This document shows, piece after piece, positions 5,485-26,270 of a DNA stretch of 26,367 nucleotides (position 1 is its first letter; the number at the start of each line of letters is the position of its first letter). A model generated the notes under the pieces. It saw nothing but the letters and a program-made list of their open reading frames with translations. It ran no database searches and was not told the origin of the DNA. The position numbers were made by a program, and so were the translations under genes. The DNA lies in IMG/VR virus record IMGVR_UViG_3300028925_000473, positions 1-26,367 of that record. One strand, written 5' to 3'. This stretch comes from a virus.

Positions 5485-6375
5485 CTACCTTTTTAATCCA
5501 GCGTATGTTCCATATGCCCCTGCACCAGCGCCAGCCAAACCAAACAACCCGCCTGTCATAGCATTATTTGCGCCCATCTGTTGAGCATATTGGTTGTTTA
5601 GCATTGCATTAGACGAATTTTGTGCGCCAATGAAGTCTGTGTTTGCAACACCAGTTTGAGGGATAGCTGAGAATGTTGGGTTGTTAATTTGTGTGCCTGA
5701 CATTAATGCAGAAACTTCGTTTAATGGTGCGTTTCTGATACGCTCATATTCTTGTATCGCACGTTCTCTTGCGTTGCCTTGCAGACCAAATAGCCTAGAT
5801 TGTTCTGCACCACCGCCTGTAACAGCATTATTCATTGCTGACTGAAACGCATCATTTCTTGTGCGGCCTTGGCTCTCCATTGCCTTTGTATATGCGTCTG
5901 AACCAACGCCAATGCCTTGATTTGCAAGTTGTGTTTCTAAAGCCGTTTGAGCATCTGAGAATTGTGGGTTAAGGCGTGATTCATATTGGTTATACATCGC
6001 GTCAATAGTTTGTTGTCTAGCCGCTGCATCAGCAACAGGTGCGTCAGGCATACCTTCATACGAATATGGATCTGACAAGCTGCCTTCAACTCTTGTAATT
6101 TGATCTCCAGCTAATTCGTTAAGTTGACCCGATATTCCAGTTTGTTGATCAACAATAGCTTGCTGGGCAGGGTCTAAAGTTGTGGTTCTCGTGTAATCAG
6201 ATGAACCGTCTCCACCGTCTGTTTTGGTGTACACAGAAGAACCATAAGGCGTATATTCGTCAACACGGTTTAAACGGGCCTGTGTTTCCGCTGTTTCTTT
6301 GTTCATAGCACCTTGCGCTGCCGCTGTTGCGTATGGATCAGGAGCCGCTGGTGCGCGGGGGGAAGATTTACCCAT
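5485..6375 (-). CDS. Small ejection-type / internal virion protein
   Basis: This 296-residue protein opens with a proline/alanine-rich segment (MGKSSPRAPAAPDPYATAAA), followed by a VDEYTPYGSSVYT motif and long helical Gln/Asn/Ala-rich stretches. This opening recurs in a family of podovirus virion proteins found beside DNA-transfer genes. A glycine/alanine-rich hydrophobic tail (GGLFGLAGAGAGAYGTYAGL) covers the last 25 or so residues and could touch a membrane. It is the first of the three ejection-type genes and is the positional counterpart of P22 gp7. Its start overlaps the end of the acetyltransferase gene by 8 bases. A structural role is likely; assignment to the ejection complex is inferred. 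Confidence 0.6.
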   Translation of the reverse strand: MGKSSPRAPAAPDPYATAAAQGAMNKETAETQARLNRVDEYTPYGSSVYTKTDGGDGSSDYTRTTTLDPAQQAIVDQQTGISGQLNELAGDQITRVEGSLSDPYSYEGMPDAPVADAAARQQTIDAMYNQYESRLNPQFSDAQTALETQLANQGIGVGSDAYTKAMESQGRTRNDAFQSAMNNAVTGGGAEQSRLFGLQGNARERAIQEYERIRNAPLNEVSALMSGTQINNPTFSAIPQTGVANTDFIGAQNSSNAMLNNQYAQQMGANNAMTGGLFGLAGAGAGAYGTYAGLKR

Positions 6376-6790
6376 TTAGCCACCTCTTTGCGTTGTCTGA
6401 ATATAACCCATAAGTGCAAGCAGTTTTACCTTTTGCAGCGTATGGGTGTGTGCCTTCCAACAAAAAACCAAGCCCACTAAGGAGCTTTCTTGCCTTCTTG
6501 TTTGATTTGCTAGTAATTGCTGTCATTCTTTTTACGCCCAGTTGGATAAATGGATAGTGCAATAATGCTCTAACATTGCCAAGCGTGGCCCATCTCTGGG
6601 TCGCAGTAATAAAGGTTACTTCAACGTCACTATGACGAAAATTGTGATAAATCGCAACCCCTATAATTTCACCTTCACTGGATGCAATGCCAATCGATGT
6701 TAATGGTCTCGCTAATGGAGCGCAATCTGGGTATTGAGTTTCGGCCCAAGTTGCTAGTTCTTCGTCACGATCAAAGATAAGTTGCGTCAT
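6368..6790 (-). CDS. GNAT-family acetyltransferase
   Basis: This 140-residue protein has the compact layout of GNAT N-acetyltransferases. A central strand VEVTFITATQRWATLGNVRA (about 76-95) corresponds to the acetyl-CoA pyrophosphate-binding region, and a C-terminal segment NKKARKLLSGLGFLLEG (about 117-133) is the usual helix-turn-strand that closes the fold. The canonical Q/R-x-x-G-x-G/A signature is only loosely kept (RWATLGN). Small GNAT proteins are frequent in podovirus late operons, but substrates are generally unknown; a virion protein, a host protein or a toxin are all possible. It directly follows the membrane-protein gene (TAG abutting ATG) and overlaps the next gene by 8 bases, so it is a full member of the late operon. 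Confidence 0.75.
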   Translation of the reverse strand: MTQLIFDRDEELATWAETQYPDCAPLARPLTSIGIASSEGEIIGVAIYHNFRHSDVEVTFITATQRWATLGNVRALLHYPFIQLGVKRMTAITSKSNKKARKLLSGLGFLLEGTHPYAAKGKTACTYGLYSDNAKRWLNG

Positions 6791-7273
6791 CTAGATCAGA
6801 CACAGGCCAGCCATAATAAACCCATATGACAAACGTCCCCATTTCTCAGCATGGAAAAACGGTAATTTACGCTTTTCTTCAAGTTTAGATAATTCAACGT
6901 ATGTCAAAGTTAAAATAGTCCCAGAGACACCAAACGGAATTAACCAAAAAGGGTCAGCAACAAAGAAACTATATGCTAAAGCAAAAACAGCCGTGGGCAT
7001 TGCGTAACTTAAAACCATGCCGCGCCCGTGTGGGTTTTTCCAATAATTTGTAAAGCCTGGCATCCCTGCCGTCATCAATCGTGCAACAACCAAACCAGCA
7101 ACTGAAACCACACCCAACCGCACAGGGTCAAGTATCCAAGGCCCATAAGCAACCAGGCAAGACGCAACAACCAAGGCCAACGCATAAAGATTGCTGCTTT
7201 TCCATCGTTTGTCTGAGCCATCGTAATATCGCCATATGCCTGTTGCTATTCCAATTATAATAGCTTCAATCAT
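6791..7273 (-). CDS. Polytopic membrane protein of unknown function
   Basis: This 160-residue protein has hydrophobic segments at about residues 1-14, 29-46, 51-69, 86-104, 107-125 and 146-160, so four to six membrane spans are likely. Short charged loops such as YYDGSDKRWK and KLEEKRKLPFFHAEKW lie between them. It is longer than most holins and has more spans, and no endolysin or spanin gene is seen beside it, so a holin role is not supported. Its start overlaps the end of the ADP-ribosyltransferase-like gene by 4 bases (ATGA), and the acetyltransferase gene abuts its stop. A role in envelope modification, superinfection exclusion or lysis is possible; none can be chosen from the sequence. 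Confidence 0.65.
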   Translation of the reverse strand: MIEAIIIGIATGIWRYYDGSDKRWKSSNLYALALVVASCLVAYGPWILDPVRLGVVSVAGLVVARLMTAGMPGFTNYWKNPHGRGMVLSYAMPTAVFALAYSFFVADPFWLIPFGVSGTILTLTYVELSKLEEKRKLPFFHAEKWGRLSYGFIMAGLCLI

Positions 7274-8796
7274 TTGTTATTTACTCCACTTAAAGCATCA
7301 ACCATTGATTCACCATTCCGCTCTAACAACTTCATGCGGTTTAATACGTCTTGATCCCATGTGACAAAGTTACGGGTTTGTGGTTTTTCTAATTCTCTTA
7401 TAGCATCGGCCCACCTTTTTTTGTGGTCATCAGCCATTGGCCCCCAATCAGCATCCGCACTGTCGAACCGCTTCCTAGCGTTAGCTAACGCCGCCTCTTG
7501 CGAACCAGCCGCCTCTATCAGAGATTTTGTAGAACTAGCTGGGCGACTCATCCCGTCAAAGTATTTCAGACCTGGGATGCCAGCTTTGGCTAGGGCTTCT
7601 GAGGCGGCTTGATTTTTACCTGTTTTATGTAAAAGCTGATCTCCTGTAGTTGTTGTTCCTTCTAACCACTGTCTTGCTACTTTTTCAGCTTGCTCATGGC
7701 TAATTGCGGAACGAGTCAATGGTTGCATATTTGACAACGGCCCACTTCCTTTCATGGGAAAATAATTTAAATTTGTCCCACTAGGTTTTTTTGGTACGGT
7801 TACAGAATTGACACCATCACTAAAAGTTATAACTTCATCAACTTCTGTTTTTTTAATATTTCCGTTACCGTACCCCAAAGCCTTCCGCACACTCTCAGGC
7901 TGCTCACTCAAAGGCGCATCATAATCCAGATACCGCGCTATGTCGTCGTCGGGTAGATCGTGTTTGTAGAGGTATGCTTCTGTCGTTTCGTCAAAAGAAA
8001 AATCGGCCCATTTGTCTTTTTCAAGCCCTCTTTGCCCTCGCGCTGTTGGAATAACGCTTTTAGTCATAGCATCTTTTATTTGGGTCACATTCATACTGCC
8101 ATAAATAGCGCGGATTGTTTGTTCTGCGCTTTTTAATTTGTCACCTGAAATGCCTTTTGTTAGTGTTTCAACTGCAAAATCTATAGCATCTTTTCGGCCT
8201 TCTGGCGTTACAACTTCTTGTTTTACTTTATTCCCAAGAGTGTTTTTATAATCCTGTGCTACGTCTTTGCTTTCAGCATCATAACGCCCATACCCATAAG
8301 CCTGTACGCCTTCGCCCTTGCTCATGTGCTTGAGGCTTTCAGCCGCGCCCTCTGGCCCGTATTTGTGTGGGCCACCTTGGAATACGTTTGCGCCCAATAT
8401 AGCCCCCTTTGGCATATCTGTCATTCTGCTAACAACACCACCGCCCGCCATTGTATCAGCCGCCAAACCAAGCGCATCCGTTGCAGCTTGATCCATTGCG
8501 GCTGGGTTGCTTCTATCAGTTCCCATAATGCTTTTGGTTTTATCGCCCACATCTTGAACGATCATATTGCCCAAACCATAAACAGCTTTAGCTGGCAACG
8601 CCATCATGCCTAATGCAGTTTCTGGCGGTTGATATTGATTGTATGCATCGCCAAGTGCCGCTGCCATGTTTAATACTTTGCCGCCTAATCCATATTGCTT
8701 CTGACCAACAGCTCGACGTTGATTCTGCAATTGCCCTGTATAATTGGACATTTGGTTAAAATCATCAACGCCTAACGCTTGCCGCATGTTAACCAT
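7270..8796 (-). CDS. ADP-ribosyltransferase-like polyvalent protein
   Basis: This 508-residue protein has three parts. Residues 1-130 form a helical, glycine/alanine-rich module with DAYNQY (50-55), PAKAVYGLG (68-76) and ADTMAGGG (113-120). Residues about 136-480 carry the motif series of the ART-PolyVal family described in polyvalent proteins of phages and conjugative elements: VFQGGPHKY (138-146), GEGVQAYGYGRYDAE (161-175), YLYKHDLPDDDIARYLDYD (275-293), ALAKAGIPGLKYFDGMSR (401-418) and TRNFVTWDQDVL (474-485). Residues 494-508 hold NGESMVDAL. Family members are thought to transfer ADP-ribose from NAD to a target; no target is visible. The first and last modules recur in the metallopeptidase at 10939-12174. 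The position among virion genes suggests virion packaging and delivery, which is inference. TAATG overlap with the preceding gene. Confidence 0.7.
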   Translation of the reverse strand: MVNMRQALGVDDFNQMSNYTGQLQNQRRAVGQKQYGLGGKVLNMAAALGDAYNQYQPPETALGMMALPAKAVYGLGNMIVQDVGDKTKSIMGTDRSNPAAMDQAATDALGLAADTMAGGGVVSRMTDMPKGAILGANVFQGGPHKYGPEGAAESLKHMSKGEGVQAYGYGRYDAESKDVAQDYKNTLGNKVKQEVVTPEGRKDAIDFAVETLTKGISGDKLKSAEQTIRAIYGSMNVTQIKDAMTKSVIPTARGQRGLEKDKWADFSFDETTEAYLYKHDLPDDDIARYLDYDAPLSEQPESVRKALGYGNGNIKKTEVDEVITFSDGVNSVTVPKKPSGTNLNYFPMKGSGPLSNMQPLTRSAISHEQAEKVARQWLEGTTTTGDQLLHKTGKNQAASEALAKAGIPGLKYFDGMSRPASSTKSLIEAAGSQEAALANARKRFDSADADWGPMADDHKKRWADAIRELEKPQTRNFVTWDQDVLNRMKLLERNGESMVDALSGVNNK

Positions 8797-20211: not shown

Positions 20212-21591
20212 TCAATCATATCTTGGTTTGCTTCTTTTAGCTGATTTAAGCAAATCGTTAAATGTAACAGTTGATTTGCCGCCAGCGTTTATAATTCTAC
20301 CAGGCTTTTTTTCAACTTTAACTACTGGCTCTTTCCAAACCCAAGACAAATATCTTAGTGCATCAGCGTAATGATTTGTCCAATCGTGGACGGGCCTTTC
20401 TCTAAAACATTTCTTGTCGTCATCCCATTCACGCCTAAAATTTGTTAACGCATCCAAGAATTTCTCTTGGCTTTCATCAATCCATAAACGTGGAAAAAGT
20501 TGCCGCGCTGCCATAATTCCTTGTTGTTCAGTGTTGGTGTTTTTTAATATCGACACATTTTTTAAACCGTGGTCTTTAGTAAATTGTTCGTAAACTGATC
20601 TGCCCGCAGCCGCTAACGTCTTGGCTTGAGCATCGTGCGGTAGCCAATGCTTGCCGTAATTGAGCGCCCAAGGCTTGTCATTAATAACTTTGGCGTAATG
20701 CTCCAAGTCGCGTCCGTTTGCATCATATGTATCAATAATTCTAACTTCTCCAGCCAATACCTGGACAAACAATATAACCGTATCGTCAGAATAACCAATA
20801 TCCCAGACGGTCATTACTGGCAGACTTTCGTCCCATTTAATTGGAAGAATACGCCCTTCTTTTCTAGCCCTAGTCAAATGGCTACCGTAAAACGATCCAA
20901 TAATTGCCGCTTCAAAACTGCAAAAATATTCTTGCTCAAATAGTGATCTGCCAAGTTCTTCGTCATACAAATCAATATATTCAGCCAAACTTTCGTCTAA
21001 TTGGAATTGTGTCAAAGCACCAGTATCTTGAATACTAGACAGTTCTGCAAACCAATAATCGGATTTAACCGCACGATCAAACATGCGTTTTGCGTGGTTG
21101 GATCCACGGGGCGTTGTAATAAATGCCGCTGTGCCGTCTGATTCTTCAATCATTGGCTTGTGATAAGCCCAAGCTGCTGGATTGCATAACGCCCACTCTG
21201 AGTAAGCTATACCAACAGGGCCAGAGCCAACCGTTGCGTCATAGCGGTCAGATCCTAAAAGCTGCCAGGTTGATCCCCAGACAGTTTCAATAAACATATC
21301 ATTGTCGTTAATTCTTTTGCGTATCTCTGGCGGGAAAGCTTCGTCAATTCTGCGTTTGCCTGTGTGACCATTAACACCGTTCCATATTGCTTTTCTTGCT
21401 TGTGAGTATTCTGGAAAGCAATGCCAGTATGTACCAATTCTGCGCCTGGATAAATCACGAAAGCCGTTTAAAACAATTTCGTCTTTTCCCCAACGTCTGT
21501 GTGCAATGGCAATTAATCGTTTTTGTTTTTGTTCTACCAGCGCTCTGTAAAAATCTTGTTGATACCATCTTACCGTAAAATCAACGTCCAT
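20212..21591 (-). CDS. Terminase large subunit
   Basis: The frame can be extended to a GTG at 21630, but the ATG at 21589-21591 gives a start [20 protein letters not shown] that fits the family, so 459 residues are called; the ribosome binding site is weak in either case. The ATPase domain has HRRWGKD (31-37) as Walker A, VGIAYSEW (126-133) as Walker B with the catalytic Glu, and TTP (159-161) as coupling motif. The nuclease domain begins at WDIGYSDDT (263-271), with a further acidic site in HYADALRYL near the C-terminus. It cuts concatemeric DNA and drives it through the portal. The start overlaps the small-subunit gene by 11 bases, as expected for partners. Confidence 0.9.
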
Positions 21592-22039
21592 CTGGCTTTG
21601 GCTCAAAATATGTATTGAAACTAATATCACCTGTATGCTGATTATCAGTCTTCTCTGATAAGCCTAAATCTCTTGCAATGATGTTAGCGTTAAGCAAGTC
21701 AGCCGCTGCTCCTGTGAACTTTTGATCGCGAATTACGTTATCTGCTCGTGTAGCGATATGGAGTAAATCTTTTGTTTCTCGATAGCTTACCCATGTTTTT
21801 AACGTCACATCAAGAAACCGACAAAGGCTTGTAATCGTCATAGCTCGCACTTTTGGTATTTTAACTATCTCTACTTGACCGCCAACATTCATTGCCTTGC
21901 TTTCGTACAACGGATTGTTTTCAGTCCATTCAAAATACTCAACACAGGCATTCCATAGAACATCTGGATCGCTGTATTTCATTGGCGGCCCGTGTTTTGT
22001 TCTGGCTTCCCAGAATTTATTTCCTTTTGGTGCAGCCAT
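21581..22039 (-). CDS. Terminase small subunit, P22 gp3-like
   Basis: Two ATGs lie 9 bases apart. The first (22048) sits directly against the AGGA ribosome binding site, while the second (22037-22039) has a normal 9-base spacing and gives the family-like start [20 protein letters not shown], so it is chosen (152 residues). The protein shows the gp3-type packaging family pattern: [20 protein letters not shown], then [20 protein letters not shown] and [20 protein letters not shown]. The small subunit forms a ring that recognises the packaging site and regulates the large subunit. It is the first gene after the terminator at 22060-22098, so it opens the late operon. Confidence 0.9.
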
Positions 22040-22059
22040 GCAATTCATTCCTAATTACT

Positions 22060-22098
22060 AAAAAGCCCCAGCGACAAACTTGGGGGCATGTCGCTGGG
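22060..22098 (-). terminator. Rho-independent terminator between replication and packaging modules
   Basis: On the minus strand CCCAGCGACA and TGTCGCTGGG form a perfect 10-bp stem around a 12-base loop, followed by GC and TTTTT. It lies 37 bases after the stop of the dATP/dGTP diphosphohydrolase-like gene and 21 bases before the small-terminase start. There is no T run on the plus side, so it acts on leftward transcripts. Late genes must therefore be read by antitermination, partial read-through or a promoter I cannot identify. Confidence 0.85.
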
Positions 22099-22134: not shown

Positions 22135-22500
22135 TTAAATATTTCTGTCTAGCTTTCTCAATTCAAATTCAAGAACAGCTAAAGCATTCCAAGCGGCATG
22201 GCTGGAGTGCAAAAGTTTCGATTCACTATCCACCCCATCTTTAATTGTGTGCCTTAATAAAGCGCGTTTATATCTAAGAAATCCATTCTGAACGCTTTTC
22301 CAAGCTTCCCAACCGTAGCCCTTTTCAACTGCTCCATAATTACAGATTTGACTTACTGCATTTAATGCGTTTGGAAATTGTTGCAAAACAGTTAACAAAT
22401 CTATTTTACCATTGTCCATTTTTGCACCGTCTTCGCCAATCGTTTTTCCAGTTGGATCAGTTTCTTTCTGTGCCTTTTTGTGCATTCCGATTGACCTCAT
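22135..22500 (-). CDS. dATP/dGTP diphosphohydrolase-like protein (DUF5664 type)
   Basis: This 121-residue protein has the order of motifs seen in the phage family annotated as dATP/dGTP diphosphohydrolase, N-terminal (DUF5664): MDNGKIDLLTVLQQFPNALN (28-47), ICNYGAVEKGYGWEAWKSV (52-70), KRALLRHTIKDGVD (78-91) and LLHSSHAAWNALAVLEFEL (96-114). The His and acidic residues in the last two helices are likely metal ligands, as in all-alpha NTP pyrophosphatases. It would hydrolyse a purine dNTP to the monophosphate, shaping the nucleotide pool for phage replication; substrate is inferred from the family name. The start overlaps the radical SAM stop by ATGA, so the two are translationally coupled. 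A strong terminator follows the gene. Confidence 0.7.
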   Translation of the reverse strand: MRSIGMHKKAQKETDPTGKTIGEDGAKMDNGKIDLLTVLQQFPNALNAVSQICNYGAVEKGYGWEAWKSVQNGFLRYKRALLRHTIKDGVDSESKLLHSSHAAWNALAVLEFELRKLDRNI

Positions 22501-23438
22501 TTAATTAACTCCAAATATTTTTTTGATTGCTCTGGGTTCCAGCCACCTGATTTATAATCATTCCACGGCACAGATTTAAATATCGCTTTATGGTTTGCCC
22601 AACGGGTAAATGCTTTCTGATAGGAATCTTTTTTGTCATAGGGCATAACATACGGGTCACAACCAATACCCCGCAACTTCTCAACTCTGTACAAATCCTG
22701 ATCTGGTGTTGTGTTAAACCCAATAAGAACAAAAAACGCCATCTGATATGGTTTAATACCAGCGTCAACAACTCTTTCTATACCGCTCATTATAACTTTT
22801 TCTGTGCCTTTGCCCCATTGATCCCAAGCAAAGAACACTTGCTTCCTTGTGTTTTTAACATTTGTAAAGTTTACTGACGCTAAAGCAGCCGCTTGTTCTT
22901 CCGTGATGATGCGTATATTTAGCCCTTGGCTAAAGCAAACTTTTAACTTAAACTTTTTTATTTCGTCAATCCTGTCAGACCACGATGGGTTTCCAAAAAA
23001 ATCGTTGTCCAAAAGCATAACAAAATTGCTATTGCGTTGCTGCCATAATTCGTTAATCGTGTTTTCCTCGTATGGTTTTCCTTCTTTTTCTGGGACTACA
23101 CAGAACTTACAACGGAACCGACAGCCCCGCATAGTAAAGCCTATATTATGTGGGTATCCATACAGTGAATAATCTGGCTTACAATCTTCTATCTCTGGCG
23201 CAAGTTTAGATCGTAAATCCCAACCAGTGCCGCCTATTTCCATGCGGGAATCGTCCAGCAAAGACCCGTCAGAAAACTTAAAAATCTTTGACGCATATAC
23301 CTTATCATATGACGATTGGAATAAAGGGTCATACAACACCACACTATCACCAAGACTTTTATGGTAGCTTGAAACTTTCATAAGTGCCAGATTTGGGATT
23401 GTGCTATCTACATCATACAAAGCTATACTACTCATCAT
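22497..23438 (-). CDS. Radical SAM enzyme, function unknown
   Basis: This 313-residue protein carries the radical SAM cluster motif C-x3-C-x2-C in RGCRFRCKFCVVPEKEG (Cys106, Cys110, Cys113), which binds a 4Fe-4S cluster and S-adenosylmethionine. The N-terminal 95 residues (IPNLALMKVSSYHKSLGDSV, then YDKVYASKIF and GGTGWDL) resemble the Rossmann-like, B12-domain-type N-terminus of a radical SAM group found in phages and environmental bacteria; a cobalamin site is not proven. After the cluster come MLLDNDFFGNP (141-151) and CFSQGLNIRIITEEQAAALA, the usual barrel strands. Substrate unknown; coupling to a nucleotide diphosphohydrolase gene hints at nucleotide chemistry. Two adjacent ATGs (23438 and 23435) both suit the TAGGAT site; the first is given. 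Confidence 0.8.
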   Translation of the reverse strand: MMSSIALYDVDSTIPNLALMKVSSYHKSLGDSVVLYDPLFQSSYDKVYASKIFKFSDGSLLDDSRMEIGGTGWDLRSKLAPEIEDCKPDYSLYGYPHNIGFTMRGCRFRCKFCVVPEKEGKPYEENTINELWQQRNSNFVMLLDNDFFGNPSWSDRIDEIKKFKLKVCFSQGLNIRIITEEQAAALASVNFTNVKNTRKQVFFAWDQWGKGTEKVIMSGIERVVDAGIKPYQMAFFVLIGFNTTPDQDLYRVEKLRGIGCDPYVMPYDKKDSYQKAFTRWANHKAIFKSVPWNDYKSGGWNPEQSKKYLELIK

Positions 23439-23444
23439 TTTATC

Positions 23445-24011
23445 CTAAAACGGAAGTTCGTCGTTTAGATCGTCGTTGACTGCTTTGACTTTAGAATCAG
23501 GGAACACCTCTTTGATTTGGTTTACCAGCTTCATGCTATCACTTTCAAGTATGTTGCCAATTTCATCTAGCGAATAAACTGCGACACCTTCCATAGCGGG
23601 ATCTGTTCGTATAGCTTTGATTGCGTCTGCGTTGCCCTGTGCTACGGCAAACTTAAAACCATCGCCTGTCGTGTGGCTCCAGATGTTAGGCTTGAGCGGA
23701 GTGAAGCCAGATGATGTGGCATCCAAATCCATCTTCTCCCAGCCTTTAATTAACACCGTTGATCTTTTTGCGACTTCATTAGGATCGTTATCAATAATCG
23801 CCTGGTCTAGTTTTGCTTTAGCTGATCCAAACTTAGATGCAATTTGTGAGCTAACTAAACTCATCAGTCGATCACAACCCCACTTCAATTCGTATCGGTT
23901 TGCAATTCGATCCAATGGTTTTAGTGAATGGTGTATGCTATCAGAAATTGTATTTCCATATTCAGCATGATTAGTAAAATGATCTGGTCTTTGTCTTTTT
24001 GTTTTAGCCAT
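23445..24011 (-). CDS. Replication-associated protein with SSB-like acidic C-terminal tip
   Basis: This 188-residue protein is not one I can name. Its N-terminus is basic and polar (MAKTKRQRPDHFTNHAEYGN), the middle is helical (LMSLVSSQIASKFGSAKAKL), a mixed alpha/beta section follows with WSHTTGDGFKFAVAQGNADA, and the last residues are NDDLNDELPF. An acidic run ending in [I/L]-P-F is the hallmark of bacterial single-stranded DNA-binding proteins, whose tip recruits primase and other partners. No OB-fold is obvious, so it may be a divergent SSB, or a partner that mimics the tip. It lies between the primase-helicase gene and the radical SAM gene, 6 bases before the latter, with an AAAGGA site before its ATG. 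Confidence 0.65.
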   Translation of the reverse strand: MAKTKRQRPDHFTNHAEYGNTISDSIHHSLKPLDRIANRYELKWGCDRLMSLVSSQIASKFGSAKAKLDQAIIDNDPNEVAKRSTVLIKGWEKMDLDATSSGFTPLKPNIWSHTTGDGFKFAVAQGNADAIKAIRTDPAMEGVAVYSLDEIGNILESDSMKLVNQIKEVFPDSKVKAVNDDLNDELPF

Positions 24012-24275: not shown

Positions 24276-26270
24276 TCATCGTTTTTGCACCCTAAACCCC
24301 TTGCGGTCAATGTTGATTATTTTGCCTTCATCTACTAGGTCATTGAAGGCTTTTAATAGTGGCCCTTTCTTCTCATTTGGAAAGGCTTTTGGCAGTGCCG
24401 TCTTAACAATTCTGCCCTGCGATTTATTAGATTTGTATGGCGTATTATCGCACCAAGCTGATTCAATTTCAGTTAATATATCTTCTTTTAACTTCGTGTT
24501 ATTGATCCTATCCAATTGATCTGGTGACGATGGCATCACCATTACGCCTTTATCCCAAATAAGAGTAATATCGCTGTCGCCACCAATATCAGAGTAGTTA
24601 GATTTCTTTCTAGATAACACCCTTAATTCGTCGCTGTCCTTCACTCTCTCTAAGTATGCGCGGCTTCTGACACTGTTCTCCCAGGCGGTTGATCCTGACA
24701 ACCCAGAGCCGCTTGCAAGGCCCGACAACGATGGATGCGCTAGAAGTATAACCGTAGCATTAAACTGCTTCGTTAAAGACCCTAAATAGGTCTTACAGAA
24801 TGTATTTACTTCTCTACGGACATTCTCATTGCCGCCAAACATATCAGCCGCTGTGTCAAGAATAACTAAAACGTCATCTCTATCTTTTTTAATTTCTTTA
24901 ATCTTATCGCATAGTATCTTGTAAAATTCACCTGCCTTTGCTTCACCTTGGCTTGGAAAAGTAACAATAATATTGTCGCTTCCAACTCTAGGCCACAGCG
25001 TCAGATCGTCGGGGCCAGCGTCAAATTCTGCAACGCCTAGCCAATTATTAATGTCTAGTTGCCTACGTTTTAACTCCAATGAATCATCTTCACACATAAC
25101 GCAAATAACTGGCATCTGCTTAGTTGCTATACCAAAGAAATCTTTCCCCATTGCAACACAATTAGCAAACTGGTGAATTAATAAAGATTTGCCAACGCCA
25201 CCAGCCCCAAAGAACAACCCCGTTGTCTTATAAGGGAACCATTGGTCTAATAACCATTCTCTGTCAGGCAGAGGCCCAACAACGCTTGATGCCACAAAAC
25301 TACCATCGCCTTCAATATCGTCATCAGTAACGCTTATTTGGTCTTCTAGATCATCAGGGCCAAAGTTCTTTGGTGTTAAGCAAGTAAGATCAAAGCCATT
25401 CTGCTGCGCCATATGAAAGATTGATCCAGCGCCAATCGTTTTAACTTCACCGATTGAGTTCCACAATCTGTCCGTTTCTGTTGGATCATACTTGGACGAT
25501 CGCTTTGACCATTTGTGGAATAGCTCCAGACCTTCTGGCCCAACACTACCCTTTATTGCATGAGCCGTATAAACCCAGTCGTCATAATGTAAGTCGTTGT
25601 TAGGAACATGGCATATCGCATTATCTATCTTTTCTAAATCTGCCATCTTTGTATCTTCAGCAAAATCAAAGTTTGTGTTCTCTGGCGGCTTCGATCCGTT
25701 TGATAATGACTTTGCTTTAATCTCTCCACGTTCTGCCAAGGTGTTGTTGCAGACGGCAATGAAAGATGTAATGTCAGATGGGCTAATCGTTGTTAATGCT
25801 AATGGTGGAACATCTAAAAGACTATCGTCTGGCCAGCTATAGTTCTTCTTTGTATCTGGGTGTTTTCCACTGGCTACAAATTGCTGGCCTTCAGCTAAGA
25901 CTTCAATACAGGCATCTTGTCCTTTAATCGAATAAATAGCTGTTTTAGTTTTATAGAACGGCTCAGAACATTTGAAAACAAACAACGTCTTTGGAGCATT
26001 GCCGATTCGTTCTGGAGCAAAACCTAGCTGATCAATCGCAATGTTACGAATTGTTTCAGCCGTTGCGGGGTCTTTAACATCAATGTCAACGGCAACAATG
26101 TTGTGGATTCCACCGCATAGTAACCCAATGTTGCTGTTGCCATGCTTGGCGTAATCTTTGGCGGTGTCTGGCCTAGTCTGCCATGCTTTTAAAATAGGCA
26201 CTTTACCATTCAGCGGAGTTACATCGTAACCTAGTGTCGCCAATTCTTCCGCATATTTTTCATATCTCAT
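24276..26270 (-). CDS. Primase-polymerase fused to a RepA-like AAA+ helicase
   Basis: This 664-residue protein combines the steps of replication initiation. Residues about 1-170 form a bifunctional primase/polymerase (Prim-Pol) domain: VDIDV (61-65) gives the catalytic D-x-D and SGKH (134-137) the conserved His of the nucleotide site. Residues about 208-290 match the PriCT_2 domain that often follows it (LEKIDNAICHVPNNDLHYDD, then AHAIKG). Residues about 330-575 are a RepA/KaiC-like ATPase: Walker A GAGGVGKS (355-362), Walker B VLVILDTA (467-474) and a strand with HPS (512-514). It should unwind DNA and lay primers at the phage origin. No separate DNA polymerase is seen here, so host or out-of-window polymerase is needed. 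AAAGGG precedes the ATG at somewhat long spacing. Confidence 0.9.
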   Translation of the reverse strand: MRYEKYAEELATLGYDVTPLNGKVPILKAWQTRPDTAKDYAKHGNSNIGLLCGGIHNIVAVDIDVKDPATAETIRNIAIDQLGFAPERIGNAPKTLFVFKCSEPFYKTKTAIYSIKGQDACIEVLAEGQQFVASGKHPDTKKNYSWPDDSLLDVPPLALTTISPSDITSFIAVCNNTLAERGEIKAKSLSNGSKPPENTNFDFAEDTKMADLEKIDNAICHVPNNDLHYDDWVYTAHAIKGSVGPEGLELFHKWSKRSSKYDPTETDRLWNSIGEVKTIGAGSIFHMAQQNGFDLTCLTPKNFGPDDLEDQISVTDDDIEGDGSFVASSVVGPLPDREWLLDQWFPYKTTGLFFGAGGVGKSLLIHQFANCVAMGKDFFGIATKQMPVICVMCEDDSLELKRRQLDINNWLGVAEFDAGPDDLTLWPRVGSDNIIVTFPSQGEAKAGEFYKILCDKIKEIKKDRDDVLVILDTAADMFGGNENVRREVNTFCKTYLGSLTKQFNATVILLAHPSLSGLASGSGLSGSTAWENSVRSRAYLERVKDSDELRVLSRKKSNYSDIGGDSDITLIWDKGVMVMPSSPDQLDRINNTKLKEDILTEIESAWCDNTPYKSNKSQGRIVKTALPKAFPNEKKGPLLKAFNDLVDEGKIINIDRKGFRVQKR

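Follow-up and report, generated by a model that had tools for sequence, protein, structure and literature searches.

A radical SAM gene in one transcript with a PF18909 (DUF5664) gene in a tailed phage: probably exchangeable cargo in a nucleotide-pool operon

Methylthiotransferases of the MiaB/RimO type combine a Rossmann-like N-terminal domain, which carries three auxiliary-cluster cysteines, with a radical SAM barrel, and AprD4, a radical SAM diol dehydratase, works without B12. On the side of the PF18909 domain (DUF5664), the stand-alone enzyme of Arthrobacter phage Wayne (DUF5664-1, ALY10775.1) is described as converting dATP, dUTP and dGTP to dNMPs with kcat values of 0.48, 0.22 and 0.053 per second, dATP being hydrolysed about ten times faster than dGTP, and the same source reports DUF5664 also from Arthrobacter phages with canonical genomes (PMC12884076). 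The Wayne gene encodes a single PF18909 domain and lies directly 3' of an adenylosuccinate-synthetase-like (PurA-like) gene in a phage with its own PurZ0 and a DmtZ-DutZ protein; the MazZ-type DUF5664-DUF550 fusion gene of Acinetobacter phage SH-Ab 15497 likewise follows directly 3' of such a gene. For the Z-genome system of cyanophage S-2L, the source describes a modified genome copied with PrimPol only, alongside a dNTP hydrolase (PMC8065100).

The locus studied here lies in a stretch of 26,367 nucleotides (the window) from IMG/VR record IMGVR_UViG_3300028925_000473, a tailed phage according to profile matches for a P22-like portal, a small terminase and a major head protein. As in Wayne, a single PF18909 domain directly follows the gene of a putative modifying enzyme, and as in S-2L a PrimPol, here the sole polymerase-like gene found, stands beside a dNTP hydrolase, here a predicted one. 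Unlike Wayne and S-2L, the window phage yielded no PurZ when searched; PF18909 stands in place of the DatZ/MazZ of S-2L, and the protein lacks the DUF550 half of the SH-Ab 15497 fusion, to which it is 26% identical in the alignment. We regard it as probable that the two genes are independently acquired cargo in one transcript, that is, an exchangeable and possibly DNA-modifying radical SAM cassette within a nucleotide-pool operon.

Gene anatomy and genome of the window phage

The radical SAM gene and the PF18909 gene are both on the minus strand (Table 1), and the start ATG of the latter (22500-22498) overlaps exactly with the stop TGA of the former (22499-22497). Downstream of the PF18909 gene, a minus-strand hairpin, CCCAGCGACA...TGTCGCTGGGG, followed by CTTTTT, folds at -24 kcal/mol (z -4.13), and none of 200 shuffles folded equally well; it is missing from the list of the consensus terminator scanner because its loop exceeds the length which the scanner allows. 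The initial annotation had already described the ATGA overlap and the common terminator, and both features, now located precisely, support its view that the two genes are made together as one transcript. Its assignment of the enzyme classes was likewise upheld by profile matches (phrog_9298 and PF18909).

Table 1. Features of the radical SAM-PF18909 region of the window, and a second slot, upstream of the primase, in four sister phages
Feature	Record	Position	Strand	Remarks
Small terminase (GP3_package)	window	21581..22048	-	first gene past the terminator; profile matches
Intrinsic terminator 3' of the PF18909 gene	window	~22060..22098	-	hairpin fold and shuffles
Stand-alone PF18909/DUF5664 gene	window	22135..22500	-	121 aa; predicted dATP/dUTP/dGTP pyrophosphohydrolase
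ATGA overlap, radical SAM stop/PF18909 start	window	22497..22500	-	read from the sequence
Radical SAM gene (phrog_9298)	window	22497..23438	-	313 aa; N-terminal Rossmann/B12-fold-like domain, then radical SAM barrel, C106-x3-C110-x2-C113
Sequence absent from the junction of L184-L187	window	~22502..23438	-	edges blurred by ATGA microhomology
AGGA, Shine-Dalgarno-like, 5' of the radical SAM ATG	window	23443..23446	-	read from the sequence
188-aa gene of unknown function, directly upstream of the radical SAM gene	window	23445..24011	-	6-bp gap; kept in all sister phages
Prim-Pol/PriCT_2/AAA_25 replication protein	window	24276..26270	-	664 aa; Pfam; sole polymerase-like gene found in the phage
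Slot upstream of primase	L184	21-812		TAGT glycosyltransferase (PF20691)
Slot upstream of primase	L185	1657-2493		C5 methyltransferase
Slot upstream of primase	L186	3260-3940		Mom
Slot upstream of primase	L187			no DNA-modification gene there

The IMG/VR contig G001 (35,646 bases; L265 and L266) represents the same phage: the window record corresponds to part of it, rotated, and is 99.9-100% identical to it where the two overlap. The ends of G001 share about 99 bases, matched in each case by positions 6103-6201 of the reversed window; the contig, classed as linear in IMG/VR, therefore looks complete and circularly permuted, with a length of about 35.5 kb. A Pfam scan of 45 chosen frames from the window and G001 gave 26 matched families, 25 of which were listed. 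The Prim-Pol gene was the only polymerase-like gene in these frames, and neither PurZ nor thymidylate synthase, DNA methyltransferase or PAPS reductase was among the families listed. One short gene within the structural region (6368-6790 of the window) looks like a GNAT acetyltransferase, and the scan gave a GNAT match that was not assigned to a named frame. The PurZ (Adenylsucc_synt) profile and the thymidylate synthase profile PF00303 each matched 0/8 records, a set that took in both the window and G001; on these results a Z-genome or thymidine route was rejected, and there is no sign of thymidine/cytosine hypermodification at the nucleotide level; a separate profile search for PAPS reductase was also negative in the window phage. 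Thus, the lack of PurZ previously noted for the window extends to the 35,646-base contig and the known 2-aminoadenine route is, as stated then, unsupported, and a thymidylate-synthase gene, which the rest of the genome might also have held, was not found there either.

The initial annotation had gone further and suggested that the two genes could belong to one route. In its fullest form, the radical SAM enzyme would make a modified dNTP, PF18909 would remove the competing purine dNTP and Prim-Pol would incorporate the modified one. The single transcript with its ATGA coupling agrees with such a route, as do the preference of the Wayne enzyme for dATP over dGTP (PMC12884076), its position after a PurA-like gene, and the PrimPol-only copying described for S-2L (PMC8065100). 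The absence of PurZ and of any thymidylate-synthase family from the records searched argues against it, as does the distribution of the two families set out below.

The PF18909 and radical SAM proteins

The PF18909 protein scored 58.4 bits with dGTP_diPhyd_N (cut-off 27). It is 22% identical to the Wayne enzyme and keeps the core residues, G56, Y62, W67 and H84 being invariant in 16 aligned PF18909 sequences, Wayne included. A label as dNTP pyrophosphohydrolase is reasonable because the stand-alone Wayne DUF5664 has an activity described in print, and this homologue also bears out the earlier view of the family as able to break down purine dNTPs (PMC12884076). Relatives of the window protein were present in 773/50,697 phage records, mostly Pseudomonas and Vibrio phages; the domain is therefore common, and its presence does not mark modified DNA. 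Most likely the window protein simply trims the nucleotide pool, as an ordinary enzyme of this kind, and its place in the radical SAM transcript is coincidental. Its structural model had a pLDDT of 85.6, and no solved structural relative was found for it, although this does not demonstrate a new fold. The name of phrog_5033, 'endolysin; inhibits RNA polymerase', was judged a carried-over label and not a function of PF18909. Many other phage records also label PF18909 proteins 'endolysin', which looks like a wrong name carried over.

The radical SAM protein matched phrog_9298 ('radical SAM domain protein') with an E-value of 2e-72, residues 4-296 aligning to positions 2-292 of the 305 in the profile, so that the family match spans nearly its full length. 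Pfam Radical_SAM scored 29.1 bits in hmmscan, slightly below the cut-off of 29.5, and 31.6 bits, above it, when the frame was scored with its neighbours. The CX3CX2C cysteines C106, C110 and C113 were invariant in 98 aligned sequences, which places the protein in the radical SAM superfamily. An AlphaFold2 model built on these 98 sequences had a mean pLDDT of 96, and its best Foldseek match was the tRNA methylthiotransferase MiaB (TM 0.61, E 1e-7). VIA-align gave Z-scores of 18.4 for AprD4, 18.2 for MgmA, 18.0 for MiaB and 17.2 for TsrM; together with RimO, these enzymes scored 17.1-18.4 over ∼274-284 residues of the model, whereas single-domain radical SAM enzymes stayed below 12. This places the protein among the two-domain enzymes, whose N-terminal domain is Rossmann/B12-like. 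Consistent with the B12-binding fold of the cobalamin-dependent class B, TsrM, MgmA, CysS and OxsB matched across both domains (Z 14-18), and AprD4 has the same two-domain arrangement. In contrast to these enzymes, the window protein has its own set of conserved N-terminal residues (D9, D11, P15, N16, H26, K51 and G69-G70-x-G72).

Outside the radical SAM triad, no column of the 98 sequences reached 50% cysteine. With the triad as the sole conserved cysteines, a second iron-sulfur cluster as in the methylthiotransferases is therefore unlikely, and identity as a MiaB-type methylthiotransferase was rejected despite the similarity in domain arrangement (VIA Z 17-18 for MiaB/RimO). On the model, the protein appears to be a two-domain enzyme of the B12-fold/methylthiotransferase class without an auxiliary cluster, in which cobalamin binding is putative. 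These comparisons bear on two other readings. In the first, the enzyme would modify tRNA (or rRNA) like its MiaB/RimO-class relatives and tune host translation during infection; MiaB is the best Foldseek match and near the top by VIA, but sulfur insertion would call for auxiliary cysteines that the family does not conserve, no TRAM domain was reported by Pfam, and the neighbours of the family are DNA methyltransferases rather than translation genes. We consider this unlikely. In the second, the enzyme would be metabolic or peptide-modifying cargo with AprD4-like chemistry on a sugar, cofactor or protein and no link to nucleic acids. AprD4 is nominally the top VIA match, tied with others, and the bearing of the gene neighbours on this reading is considered in the last section.

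In a comparison with prokaryotic viperins (ddhNTP synthases), the viperin-like structure 9dfw (Z 9.7 by VIA) fell far below the two-domain enzymes, and the single PADLOC match of the radical SAM protein was weak and to another model (E 0.018). As neither protein had a convincing PADLOC match, a defence gene was rejected as a candidate. Sequence searches of the PDB gave nothing useful, and in open-licence full texts we found no report of a function for the phrog_9298 family or of its pairing with PF18909.

Sister phages and distribution of the pairing

Four sister phages (L184-L187), whose DNA is ∼86-95% identical to the window around the site, carry the 188-aa gene, a PF18909 gene (90-93% identical) and a phrog_799-type methyltransferase gene in this order, and none of the four has a radical SAM gene at the PF18909 site. 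The methyltransferase, of 172-174 aa, follows PF18909 directly in 4/4 sisters, and the profile was run on that of L184. The empty site is base-precise, with the radical SAM frame lying between the ribosome-binding sequence and the PF18909 ATG: the sisters read TAG-GATAAA plus three bases and then ATGAG (PF18909), and the window reads TAG-GATAAA, then the ATG of the radical SAM gene and, at its end, AAATGAG (PF18909). The AGGA which serves PF18909 in the sisters thus stands 5' of the radical SAM start in the window. Since PF18909 persists in sisters that lack the radical SAM gene, the two genes seem to be exchangeable cargo and not a dedicated DNA-modification pathway.

A survey of the 188-aa gene fetched 13 loci, three of them from the window phage; a radical SAM gene was beside it in 0/10 of the others, one of which (L271) ends ∼0.4 kb past that gene. 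In L268 and L269, apparent first codons of the PF18909 gene alone remain 5' of a phrog_799-type methyltransferase gene. L268, a more distant relative (890-1225, 6671-7219), has a further DUF5664 gene elsewhere. The reverse course, in which an ancestral operon held both the radical SAM and PF18909 genes and the former has since disappeared from the sisters, has in its favour that presence and absence alone cannot fix the direction; the 0/10 count argues against it, as do the nearest radical SAM relatives (up to 71% identity), which sit in other phage backgrounds. We therefore regard loss as quite improbable, and gain as the likelier direction. The preferred course would be that PF18909 was the long-resident gene, probably trimming the nucleotide pool in replication by converting dATP, dUTP and dGTP to dNMPs, and that a phrog_9298 cassette was inserted between its ribosome-binding sequence and its start codon. 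Placed 5' of that codon, the radical SAM gene would be translated first and PF18909 via the ATGA overlap.

The survey of co-occurrence proposed along with the joint route gave little sign of a partnership. Among 90 other virus or phage records that contain the radical SAM family, a count that omits three copies of the window phage, PF18909 occurred in four and was adjacent in L036 only; it lay within the flanks of 2/80 genome loci of the family, adjacent in neither. Conversely, one of 77 other PF18909 loci (L257) held the radical SAM family. Relatives belonging to phrog_9298 at ≤37% identity, such as those of Bacteroides LoVEphage, Dulem virus 39 and vir215, were found in 15/50,697 phage records, and PF18909 was absent from the seven of these 15 that were searched. 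A MazG-type hydrolase as substitute partner was rejected, with MazG in 2/50 radical SAM records, one of them above the cut-off. Adjacency occurred at 2/146 distinct loci (the window phage and L036) compared with 0.66 expected (permutation p 0.13), in a test that took in all seven DUF5664-bearing radical SAM loci, including L036, L088, L035 and L148. With 0/4 sisters and no excess over chance, a conserved radical SAM-PF18909 operon was rejected.

In L036 a radical SAM gene 38% identical to that of the window is directly upstream of PF18909, and in L257, an unrelated phage, a diverged phrog_9298 gene (6983-7816) lies 194 bp upstream of it. The sisters and the surveys indicate that coupling is not conserved; as the order is nevertheless seen in three phages unrelated to one another, a few phages may couple the two genes. 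For the window phage, the joint route of the initial annotation is disfavoured by the sisters, which lack the radical SAM gene but retain both PF18909 and Prim-Pol, by the base-precise junction, by the rarity with which the families co-occur and by an adjacency that is not above chance, and we hold it to be very improbable.

Neighbours of the radical SAM family and its possible role

Neighbour statistics were obtained from 147 groups at 90% identity, of which 146 were usable; the genes there were called mechanically, by taking the longest frames with a preference for the same strand, so that distances counted in genes are blurred. In 41/146 loci, the radical SAM gene had a DNA methyltransferase gene at most two genes away, as compared with a mean of 20.9 and a largest value of 31 in 2000 permutations drawing random genes of the same loci (p <0.001), a null which corrects only in part for the frequency of methyltransferases in the early regions of phages. 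Similarly, a PAPS-reductase-like gene was found within two genes in 12 of the 146 loci (null 6.2, p 0.005). When the 559 genes at most two positions away were set against the 1056 genes six to ten away, C5 methyltransferases numbered 18 versus 4, N6/N4 methyltransferases 20 versus 9, Dam 5 versus 1 and PAPS reductases 12 versus 4. Pfam tallies of random samples (148/359 genes at 1-2 positions and 148/302 at 7-8) gave 7 versus 1 for N6_N4_Mtase, 6 versus 2 for PAPS_reduct and 5 versus 2 for the C5 methylase; PF18909 was not among the 25 of 91 families listed for the near sample and had two matches in the far one.

Two PAPS-reductase-like neighbours had the phosphorothioation protein SspD as their best PADLOC match (E 1e-17 and 3e-15). 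Genes resembling PAPS reductase or SspD adjoin the radical SAM gene or lie near it in close relatives of the window gene (L027:3461-4270, L030:143-961 and L016:1097-1930). Within this close clade the Pfam PAPS reductase profile matched 3/18 records, the SspD-like gene of L016 not among them, and the link is therefore moderate. Several annotated stretches around phrog_9298 relatives have a PAPS reductase or a DNA methyltransferase nearby, unlike the window phage, whose own enzyme would need to act unaided by such partners.

The methyltransferase neighbours, together with the DNA-modification genes in the sisters' slots (Table 1), are grounds for guessing at DNA modification, as an association and not a proof. 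The same non-random placement, seen across many hosts, and the same slots weigh against metabolic or peptide-modifying cargo, which we consider rather unlikely. That the radical SAM enzyme alone serves in DNA modification is plausible, with some support of its own: the enzyme would most likely modify the phage DNA after replication, as an anti-restriction measure, with a tRNA or small-molecule substrate as the main alternative. A bolder and doubtful extension is that phrog_9298 is an undescribed DNA-modifying class, in which a radical SAM enzyme acts directly on a base, or on the backbone, of phage DNA; as an anti-restriction cassette it would be interchangeable with methyltransferases, TAGT or Mom, and in some phages would have an SspD/PAPS-reductase-like partner.

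A transcript shared with a dNTP hydrolase gene is weak evidence for a pathway at a hotspot for cassettes, and the sister phages offer a clean natural comparison between presence and absence of the radical SAM gene. The phrog_9298 family is spread across phages and prophages of many hosts, and if it does modify DNA, radical chemistry on DNA would join the phage anti-restriction repertoire.
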